Source of the DNA: a virus
IMG/VR virus record: IMGVR_UViG_3300047392_000149
Span: 1-23,705 of that record
Length of the DNA stretch: 23,705 nt
Reading direction: 5' to 3' (one strand)
Each line of letters begins with the position of its first letter. Position 1 is the first letter of the stretch. The notes under the pieces are model-generated. The model had not been told where the DNA came from. It saw only the letters and a list, made by a program, of their open reading frames with translations, and did no database searches. Shown piece after piece: positions 3,068 to 10,427 of the stretch. A program made the position numbers and the translations under genes.

Positions 3068-3865
3068 ATGAAGCGTATTGCTAAGTTTGCCGTTCTCGCA
3101 GGTCTTATGGCCACTGCTTCGGCGTGTACTCGTATTGAAACTGGTGAAGTCGGTGTTCGACGTTCGCTTGATAAGACAATTGAAACTAGTGAGTTGATGC
3201 CTGGCTCTGTTAATCAGACGCTGTTCGGCGATGTTATGACCTTCCCTGTTAAGGATGTTTCTGCTGATATCACAGACTTGACTCCGCTGGCGGCTGACAA
3301 CTCAACCATCGCTGATTTCGATATGGCTGTTATCTATTCAATCAATCCTACTTCTGTAGCTGAATTGTTCATTGGTAAGAGTCGTACTTTTCATGCTGAT
3401 ACGGAAGAAGGCGACACATTGTTGATGTACAATTATGTACGCAACCTAGGTCGTAACGCTGCATATAAGGTTGCTCGTAAATACGAGTCACTTAAGATGG
3501 CTGATAACCGTGCTGAAATCGAGCAGCTTGTCCGTCAGGAAATCGTTACCCAACTAGCTAACGAGAAGCTTGATACTTCGATTACAATCTCGCAGGTACT
3601 TGTTCGCCAGATTAAGCCCGCTGCAAATATTGTTCAGTCCGCTAACCTTTTGGTGCAGGCACAGAACGAAAACAAGCGTAAGGAAGTTGAAGTTTCAACT
3701 GCAAAGCTTGAAGCACAGCGTATCTCGGCATTGAACGCTAACGCTGGTGCAACGAAGTACATGGAAGCAACTGCTATCGTGACGATCGCAGAAGCCATCA
3801 AAGACGGCAAGGTTAACACTATTGTTGTTCCTTACGACTTCAAAGGTATCGTAAACGTCAAGTAA
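3068..3865 (+). CDS. SPFH/prohibitin-like predicted lipoprotein
   Basis: A 265-residue protein. Residues 1-20 form a signal peptide ending in a lipobox-like ATASAC, so Cys20 is predicted to carry lipid. The mature part starts with an SPFH-type beta domain (TGEVGVRRSLDKTIE...LMPGSVNQTLFGDV), continues through an R-V-RNLGRNAAYKVARKY helical region, and ends with a charged helix (ENKRKEVEVSTAKLEAQRI) and a conserved tail, as in prohibitin, HflC and stomatin relatives. Cellular members form membrane-bound rings that organise proteases and lipids, and usually use an N-terminal helix as anchor rather than a lipid. AAGGA at 3053-3057 is the likely ribosome binding site. Role in the phage unknown; envelope modification during infection is a guess. 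Confidence 0.85.
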   Translation: MKRIAKFAVLAGLMATASACTRIETGEVGVRRSLDKTIETSELMPGSVNQTLFGDVMTFPVKDVSADITDLTPLAADNSTIADFDMAVIYSINPTSVAELFIGKSRTFHADTEEGDTLLMYNYVRNLGRNAAYKVARKYESLKMADNRAEIEQLVRQEIVTQLANEKLDTSITISQVLVRQIKPAANIVQSANLLVQAQNENKRKEVEVSTAKLEAQRISALNANAGATKYMEATAIVTIAEAIKDGKVNTIVVPYDFKGIVNVK

Positions 3866-3874
3866 TTTTTATAC

Positions 3875-3903
3875 TTGACATAATCCCCTCAATCAGCTAT
3901 AAT
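3875..3903 (+). promoter_or_regulatory. Consensus sigma70 promoter embedded in a hairpin
   Basis: TTGACA (3875-3880), exactly 17 bp, TATAAT (3898-3903): a perfect consensus match. The spacer is the left arm of the hairpin at 3882-3924 and the -10 element lies in its central part. Predicted start near 3910, feeding the phosphoesterase gene. Confidence 0.92.
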
Positions 3904-3930
3904 AATAGCCTGATTGAGGGGATTTTTTTA
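3882..3930 (+). terminator. 15-bp inverted repeat with T-run, terminator for the SPFH-like gene
   Basis: Left arm 3882-3896 and right arm 3910-3924 are perfect reverse complements (15 bp). The 13-base centre can pair further (CTAT with ATAG). A run of T follows (3923-3929). Read from the SPFH-like gene it forms a strong terminator. GAGGGG (3916-3921) in the right arm also serves as Shine-Dalgarno sequence for ATG 3930. Confidence 0.88.
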
Positions 3931-4730
3931 TGCGTATTAAACAGATGAGCGATCTTCACCTAGAGTTCGATGCTAACTTCTTTCCTAAGAATGAGGAAAA
4001 GGCAGATATCCTAATGCTCAATGGTGATATTTGTATGGGGGCACTTTTCGATAAGAGCCCAGAAAGCCCTTACCATGCTAAGGCACTAGAGTTTCTTAAC
4101 TTCTTCCGGTTCTGTTCCGAGGAGTACGAGGAGGTTCTTTATATTCCAGGTAATCATGAATATTATCGTGGCTATATTGATACTACTGATGATATTATTC
4201 GAAAAACTCTTTCAGTGTTTCCGAATATTCATTTTCTAAATAATCAGAAGTGGGAGAAGGATGGTATCACGTTTCTAGGGGCTACTCTTTGGACTGATAT
4301 GAATCATAGAAATCCTATTACAGAACAGTACCTTATGTCTAGTATGAATGATTTTCGAATTATTAACTGGAAAGAGGATAGTTATGGTGGTCGATTCCGT
4401 CCTTCGGATGCCGCTGCATTTCATTACAGAACTATGAAGTTCTTTGATGAGGCTAGTGCTGGGCTAGATAACGTTGTTATCATGAGTCACCATGCTCCGT
4501 CCTTCATGAGTGTTCACCCTAAGTATCATAATGATTTCCAAATGAACTATGGCTACTACTCCTTGTTAGACGGGTTTATCATAGATCGACCACAAATCAA
4601 GCTATGGACACACGGACATATGCACGATTGCTTCGATTATAAGATTAACGATACTAGGGTTGTTTGCAACCCGCGTGGCTATAAGAACGAGAACAAGTTC
4701 TTTAAGCGGCATCAGATTTTAGAAGTCTAA
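3930..4730 (+). CDS. Calcineurin-like metallophosphoesterase
   Basis: A 266-residue protein with the full metallophosphoesterase motif set in order: SDLHLEF (Asp8, His10), NGDI (about 31-34), GNHEY (about 73-77), SHHAP (about 190-194) and THGHMH. These residues bind two metal ions and hydrolyse phosphomono- or diesters. The substrate cannot be read from sequence; cyclic nucleotides, nucleic acid ends or host phosphoproteins are possible. The start is fixed by GAGGGG in the upstream hairpin arm. It is a single-gene transcription unit with its own promoter (3875-3903) and terminator (4734-4772). Confidence 0.9.
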   Translation: MRIKQMSDLHLEFDANFFPKNEEKADILMLNGDICMGALFDKSPESPYHAKALEFLNFFRFCSEEYEEVLYIPGNHEYYRGYIDTTDDIIRKTLSVFPNIHFLNNQKWEKDGITFLGATLWTDMNHRNPITEQYLMSSMNDFRIINWKEDSYGGRFRPSDAAAFHYRTMKFFDEASAGLDNVVIMSHHAPSFMSVHPKYHNDFQMNYGYYSLLDGFIIDRPQIKLWTHGHMHDCFDYKINDTRVVCNPRGYKNENKFFKRHQILEV

Positions 4731-4733
4731 CAA

Positions 4734-4772
4734 AAAAGCCCGCCTCCAGCAATGGAAGCGGGCTTTATTTTT
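4734..4772 (+). terminator. Rho-independent terminator
   Basis: AAAGCCCGC (from 4735) pairs with GCGGGCTTT (about 4757-4765), with a short inner TCC/GGA helix, followed by ATTTTT. It begins four bases after the phosphoesterase stop. Confidence 0.9.
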
Positions 4773-4784
4773 AGGTATGCGCCG

Positions 4785-6632: not shown

Positions 6633-6759
6633 TCTTTGGTATCGCTCGACAGGGCAAAAGCTCATTCTAGCTAATATCTCGAAGAATCATATGGACTACG
6701 GAATGAGCCCAGCTCAGCATCTACGTGCTAAGCAGGAACGCGCAGAAAATAATTCTTGA
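6583..6759 (+). CDS. Small basic protein, unknown function
   Basis: A 58-residue protein, MQETHTQKMERKRKQRDLWY..., ending AKQERAENNS. GGAG at 6572-6575 supports ATG 6583, which gives a 50-base overlap with the preceding gene; ATG 6607 is an alternative with a 26-base overlap but no ribosome binding site. Highly charged and helical. Its TGA overlaps the -35 element of the tmRNA promoter. No function is assigned. Confidence 0.6.
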   Translation: MQETHTQKMERKRKQRDLWYRSTGQKLILANISKNHMDYGMSPAQHLRAKQERAENNS

Positions 6760-6784
6760 CTTTTGGTGTAACTTTTGTTATATC
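6756..6784 (+). promoter_or_regulatory. Sigma70-type promoter for the tmRNA gene
   Basis: TTGACT (6756-6761), 17-bp spacer, TATATC (6779-6784). Predicted start about 6790, just ahead of the acceptor piece of the permuted tmRNA. Confidence 0.75.
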
Positions 6785-6853
6785 AGATACATAGTCGCTG
6801 ACAGCCGACAATAAAAGCGGACAAGACCGGAGTTCGATTCTCCGCGGCTCCAC

Positions 6854-6906
6854 CATGAATACTGTTCCGATAGAGGGTTCAGTTGCCGAAAAGAGCAGTA
6901 TTCATG
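6854..6906 (+). repeat. Hairpin of the tmRNA intervening segment
   Basis: CATGAATACTG (6854-6864) is the reverse complement of CAGTATTCATG (6896-6906), 11 bp, with a 31-base loop. It stacks next to the acceptor helix (6845-6851 with 6909-6915) and would hold the two pieces together in the precursor. Confidence 0.9.
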
Positions 6907-6984
6907 ACGGGGCCGACCTGGGTTCGATTGACGTGTAATAGGAACGCCGAGACTATTGACTGGCAAAGTGCCACTAAACTAAAT

Positions 6985-7029
6985 GCTAACGATAACGATA
7001 GCTTTGCAGATATCCGCCTAGCGGCATAA
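6985..7029 (+). other. tmRNA proteolysis-tag reading frame
   Basis: GCT AAC GAT AAC GAT AGC TTT then GCA GAT ATC CGC CTA GCG GCA TAA encodes ANDNDSFADIRLAA. It starts with the ANDN typical of alphaproteobacterial tags and ends LAA, the signal read by ClpXP-type proteases. It has no ribosome binding site of its own because ribosomes resume here from a stalled message. Confidence 0.93.
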
Positions 7030-7042
7030 TCTACACGGGTAC

Positions 7043-7074
7043 GGCTCCACCTTGGAACAGAACGGGCCATTTTT
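7043..7074 (+). terminator. Possible weak terminator after the tmRNA
   Basis: GGCTC (7043-7047) can pair with GGGCC (7064-7068), one G-T pair, followed by ATTTTT. The long loop makes it weak; it may instead be read through into the next genes. Confidence 0.35.
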
Positions 7075-10398: not shown

Positions 10399-10427
10399 TT
10401 GACATTCCAAGTCTTTCTTAGTATAAT
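10399..10427 (+). promoter_or_regulatory. Consensus sigma70 promoter
   Basis: TTGACA (10399-10404), 17 bp, TATAAT (10422-10427): a perfect match. It begins just after the preceding stop and drives the HTH gene at 10455, which has AAGGAG at 10442-10447. Confidence 0.93.

Follow-up and report, generated by a model that had tools for sequence, protein, structure and literature searches.

The window analysed here, that is the whole stretch of 23,705 bases, is one entire IMG/VR record, in which a gene of the SPFH/Band 7 family is followed by a metallophosphoesterase gene. Between the two genes, about 55 bp hold together a promoter, a terminator-like hairpin and a Shine-Dalgarno (SD)-like core before one phage gene. 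The features of the locus are the following:

3068–3865 (+): upstream gene of the SPFH/Band 7 family (PF01145), a neighbour that differs in other phages
3875–3903 (+): sigma70-type promoter matching the consensus at 12/12 positions and retained in the related loci L004, L005, L369 and L373
3882–3896 (+): left arm of the hairpin, within the promoter spacer, recognised as a perfect inverted repeat with compensatory changes in orthologs
3897–3908 (+): upper stem and loop in the RNA fold, where CUAU (3897–3900) pairs with AUAG (3905–3908) around the loop AAUA; it holds the copy of the –10 box and is followed by a bulged C3909
3910–3924 (+): right arm of the hairpin, from the inverted repeat and the RNA fold
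3916–3921 (+): SD-like GAGGGG in the right arm, with the core GAGG at 3916–3919 and the ATG 10 nt further, from the sequence
3923–3929 (+): T-run of seven T, the putative terminator U-tract and SD-to-AUG spacer, on which arm pairing depends in the survey described below
3930–4730 (+): metallophosphoesterase gene (PF00149, PHROG 1649), before whose relatives the cassette is kept
4727–4774 (no strand assigned): terminator-like hairpin after the phosphoesterase gene, common to L003–L005

The promoter is composed of TTGACA (–35) at 3875–3880, a spacer of 17 nt at 3881–3897 and TATAAT (–10) at 3898–3903, and its first hexamer starts 9 bases past the end of the SPFH gene, whose stop codon occupies 3863–3865. 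The arms at 3882–3896 and 3910–3924 are complementary at 15 of 15 positions, and the ATG of the phosphoesterase gene at 3930 directly adjoins the T-run. A perfect sigma70 promoter and a perfect 15-bp inverted repeat with a T-run, both described in the initial annotation of this DNA, are thus present in the same short segment, as a base-by-base check confirms. That annotation had also equated the spacer with the left arm, which holds for 3882–3896, and had placed TATAAT in the loop, which needs correction: in the RNA the copy of the –10 box lies half in the upper stem and not simply in the loop, because CUAU pairs with AUAG.

The predicted RNA fold has 19 bp in its stem, 4 nt in its loop and a single bulged C (3909); its energy, calculated for 100 nt, is –32.1 kcal/mol (z –5.9). 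An RNA beginning at 3910 folds into no notable structure (z +1.6). From the position of the –10 box, transcription would be expected to start at about 3908–3913, and RNA 3' ends would be expected at about 3925–3931. A simple terminator scan did not list the hairpin, because its perfect arms are 13 nt apart and the scan accepted loops of 8 nt at most. When the window was shuffled 1000 times with its dinucleotides preserved, no comparable element was obtained (promoter at least 11/12, arm of at least 11 bp and at least 6 T of 8), and a similarity search of the locus DNA against annotated phages and plasmids gave no match. The promoter scan found two perfect sigma70 promoters in the first 20 kb of the window, one of which is that of the element. 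The second (TTGACA-17-TATAAT, 10399–10427) is near-identical in the relative G012, and the scan found no hairpin embedded in it.

Gene association and covariation of the cassette

The same type of element stands before relatives of the phosphoesterase gene in the viral contigs of L003, L004, L005, L369 (which is the same contig as L179) and L373, the L003 element being identical to that of the window. The gene preceding the cassette is the SPFH gene in the window and in L003, and a 90-aa gene (MPKYLVE...) in L004 and L005; in L004 the end of this upstream gene and the –35 box overlap. Since the upstream gene differs among orthologs, the cassette belongs to the phosphoesterase gene and not to the SPFH gene. 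In fact, about 50 other SPFH loci have tRNAs, other promoters or different genes behind the SPFH gene and are devoid of the terminator of the window, which rules out a terminator of the SPFH gene's own. The initial view of the hairpin as the 3' end of that gene has, therefore, to be abandoned, because it travels with the phosphoesterase. The cassette is not essential to the phosphoesterase gene either, as most distant relatives of this gene are without it and the annotated cyanophage relatives are located in operons. The further hairpin at 4727–4774 is placed at the end of the phosphoesterase gene, which therefore has the appearance of a single-gene unit.

Five distinct orthologous cassettes (window, L004, L005, L369 and L373) were compared in register. 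Pair-preserving changes on both sides of the stem affect 10 of the 17 spacer positions, and not one pair is broken in these five sequences. Promoter, hairpin, T-run and SD-like core are all retained in the four diverged orthologs; across the five cassettes the cores read GAGG, GGGAG or AGGAGG, and the predicted minimum fold energies of the orthologous cassettes range from –27.0 to –28.5 kcal/mol. A cassette preceding an unrelated gene (L022) reaches –26.8 kcal/mol. The earlier proposal of a promoter lying within a terminator-like hairpin, so that RNA initiated from it would contain the right arm only, is strengthened by these comparisons, in which the arrangement is kept in orthologs with rewritten stems and recurs across viral contigs. 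The proposal that the right arm supplies the SD gains likewise from the SD-like core, kept in orthologs with other stems and in other cassettes, and this role of the arm appears probable.

Recurrence of the nested design in viral and cellular sequences

Viral contigs were scanned for a promoter, an SD-like RGRG, a T-run and an ATG at fitting distances, pairing not being required by the pattern. Near-identical matches were removed before counting, and spacers re-paired with the SD stretches of other matches served as permutation. Among the matches listed, the spacer was complementary to the SD stretch in 43/78 cases (55%) against 8.9% after permutation, and at the strictest threshold in 24% against 0.3%. 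In bacterial and archaeal genomes the same pattern gave 15% against 7.8%, again among the matches listed. When an A-run replaced the T-run, pairing of spacer and SD was observed in 9/117 of the matches listed (8%, against 5.3% permuted), whereas it persisted when the SD was moved beyond the T-run (18/42, or 43%, against 4.1%). Spacer pairing therefore follows the terminator and not the hiding of the SD alone.

A related comparison concerns the position of the SD itself. Where the T-run abuts the ATG, an SD-like core is found in the right arm in 18/25 hairpin-bearing cases among the matches listed, compared with 2/18 where the SD lies beyond the T-run (Fisher p about 1e-4); the figure is approximate, because 18 unlisted loci were inferred by list order. 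A first comparison, in which some of the loci with an abutting ATG had been selected beforehand for an SD, was repeated on another locus set. The difference between the two fractions argues that the right arm serves as SD when the SD has no other place.

The genes downstream of the surveyed cassettes include those of MazG-like pyrophosphatases and of a 5'-3' exonuclease family, as well as several small unknown families, and the sequences of the arms differ between gene families. Taken as sequence patterns, these data suggest that the nested design recurs with unrelated stem sequences in many phages and is virus-enriched. The cassette occurs before mazG in viral contigs, but it was not found before the annotated mazG genes of marine cyanophages, which are located in operons. 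A minority of the matches in cellular genome contigs, mostly Clostridia-type MAGs (L299, L308, L290 and L270), show the same pairing between promoter and SD arm.

A second design, without a T-run, was observed downstream of SPFH homologs in L007 and 20 other distinct sequences (e.g., L043, L044 and L082). Here the spacer of a promoter resembling TTGACA/TGTACA-17-TATAAC is complementary to codons of the following gene (MTMHLLGPAY...) over about 11–15 bp, and the pairing encloses the SD and the start codon. Covariation is mixed, as several outer pairs change on both sides and others mismatch. In L240 and L140, members of this gene family are preceded by a T-run cassette.

Relation to known elements and proposed mechanism

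Two families of phage elements resemble the cassette. Promoter early stem-loops (PeSLs) of T4-like phages are described as a strong sigma70-like early promoter and a stem-loop terminator placed between genes, and as mediating, or being linked to, gene shuffling (PMC4503421, citing Arbiol et al., 2010; Comeau et al., 2014). The element of the window has the strong sigma70-like promoter in its sequence (TTGACA-17-TATAAT) and, joined to it, a predicted stem-loop terminator indicated by sequence, fold, covariation and T-run dependence. In RB49, a phage with described PeSLs, one element at about 3201 of the record, on the minus strand, has its promoter within a terminator hairpin; the nesting is the same as in the window, but this RB49 element has a separate SD after the T-run. 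Compared with PeSLs as described in the citing article (PMC4503421), the right arm of the window element has the added role of holding the SD, and the U-tract would double as the spacer between SD and AUG. By its sequence, we file the element as an economical variant of PeSL.

The second family includes the leaders of T4 gene e, soc, 49 and I-TevI and of Aeh1 mobE, in which the SD of read-through RNA becomes part of a helix, whereas RNA from an internal promoter, without the 5' strand, gets translated; these leaders use T4 late promoters to delay expression and are presented as controls of translation and not as terminators (PMC3014915; PMC2988022). Folding predicts a similar behaviour for the window, with an SD paired in the long transcript and freer in the promoter-proximal one. 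However, a T4-type late promoter (TATAAATA) was not found in the 5' strand of the hairpin, which has TTGACA-17-TATAAT instead; the promoter is of sigma70 type and the hairpin depends on the U-tract. As the late promoter is absent, the element would work like the T4 e type without being a member of it, and it appears to unite the PeSL and the T4 e-type halves in about 55 bp. With ordinary intrinsic terminators it shares a stem of 15–19 bp and a U-tract, but those contain neither a promoter nor the ribosome site of the next gene, whereas the hairpin of the window has both.

We consider it likely that the element is a PeSL-type nested promoter-terminator of the phosphoesterase gene, in which the terminator also accommodates the ribosome site. 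In this mechanism, for which we infer promoter activity, termination, SD use and any timing, a polymerase arriving from the upstream gene would transcribe both arms, and the resulting hairpin of 15–19 bp with its U-tract would stop it just before the ATG. A polymerase starting at the embedded sigma70 promoter would begin at or next to the right arm, so that the hairpin could not form, and the leader of about 20 nt would use the right arm as SD and the U-tract as the spacer to the AUG. In residual read-through RNA, occlusion of the SD would act as a secondary layer. Together with the terminator-like hairpin after the gene, the cassette would form a self-contained, movable transcription unit.

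The initial annotation had proposed that read-through RNA hides the SD and that the gene is thereby insulated at both the RNA and the translation level. Hiding is predicted by folding, the SD being unpaired with a probability of 0.00–0.01 in read-through RNA against 0.25–0.63 in promoter-initiated RNA, but pairing between the spacer and the SD stretch is confined to loci in which a T-run comes next. Since pairing requires the T-run, termination is probably the selected core and translational hiding a likely by-product or secondary layer. Insulation at the RNA level is well supported by the sequence comparisons, while at the level of translation it is plausible from the predicted folds and probably secondary. 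Against the proposed mechanism count the predicted accessibility of the SD in promoter-initiated RNA, which is no higher than the values given above, and the GAGG at 10 nt from the ATG, which is a moderate SD.

Other explanations of the hairpin are much less probable. It could be mainly a translational switch like the leaders of T4 gene e and I-TevI, with the T-run as incidental spacing, and both the predicted difference in SD accessibility and the T4 precedent of a promoter in the 5' strand of a hairpin are in line with this; nevertheless, pairing is abolished by an A-run (8% against 5% permuted, among the matches listed) and stays when the SD is outside the hairpin (43% against 4%), which makes this reading very improbable. 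The palindrome over the –10 box might also be the DNA operator of a phage or host repressor, with hairpin and SD coincidental, since operators usually take the form of a perfect inverted repeat across a promoter. Yet close orthologs rewrite the arm sequences and keep the pairing, the arms differ between gene families and a T-run is needed for pairing; on these grounds we rejected this idea, to which hardly any credence can be given.

Modular shuffling, the role put forward for PeSLs, could be the main reason for keeping the cassette, which would then serve as a recombination site with secondary effects on expression. This appears improbable too, even if L005 and L373 share 95% identity in the cassette against 62% in the coding sequence and 67% upstream, and the upstream gene order differs between the window, L004 and L005. 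In fact, the cassettes of other pairs of orthologs do not exceed the genes in similarity (between the window and L369, 73% for the cassette and 75% for the gene), and the surveyed relatives carry one or few strong cassettes per contig, dense clusters being supported neither in them nor in 50 kb of Syn9. The identity between the L005 and L373 cassettes is what would be expected if cassettes also recombine, although strong constraint could do the same. A role in recombination is, in any case, compatible with the PeSL-type nested promoter-terminator and not exclusive of it.

If this PeSL-type reading is right, about 55 bp are enough for phages to accommodate three expression signals and to make a single gene a movable, insulated unit. 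A simple rule would recognise such units, namely a promoter spacer complementary to an SD after which a T-run and ATG come directly, and the survey suggests that the stem sequence changes freely across this recurrent design, which could be of use for compact insulated promoter-RBS parts. It also connects PeSL cassettes with T4-type translational switches in a way that can be tested. It is doubtful, though conceivable, that these cassettes are a dedicated early-only lock, a mirror image of the T4 lysozyme leader, general in environmental T4-like phages. In that case, once the host sigma is switched off, the promoter would die and upstream RNAs would stop at the hairpin, any late or antiterminated read-through RNA would have its SD buried, and one 55-bp sequence would enforce both timing and insulation.

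Phage and host context

The relatives G001–G003, which share the SPFH gene, carry Gp23 and a T4 portal, whereas the window contig is a fragment without either. In 52 records (the window, seven relatives and 44 contigs behind other loci), Gp23 was found above the cut-off in 10 and a T4-type portal in 11, many contigs being too short to tell. The nearest annotated relative of the SPFH gene comes from a Synechococcus phage. At 6752–7071 (+) the window contains a permuted (two-piece) tmRNA gene, missed by ARAGORN (Rfam tmRNA_permuted, 93.5 bits; alpha_tmRNA, 68.8 bits), whose tag frame appears intact and reads ANDNDSFADIRLAA-stop. The alphaproteobacterial type of this tmRNA hints at an alphaproteobacterial host. 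A tmRNA is also present in the relatives L097 (8284–8604) and L099 (5949–6349), and related phage contigs have GOLLD RNA genes surrounded by large tRNA arrays (L098:2524–2969 and L094:12444–12906).
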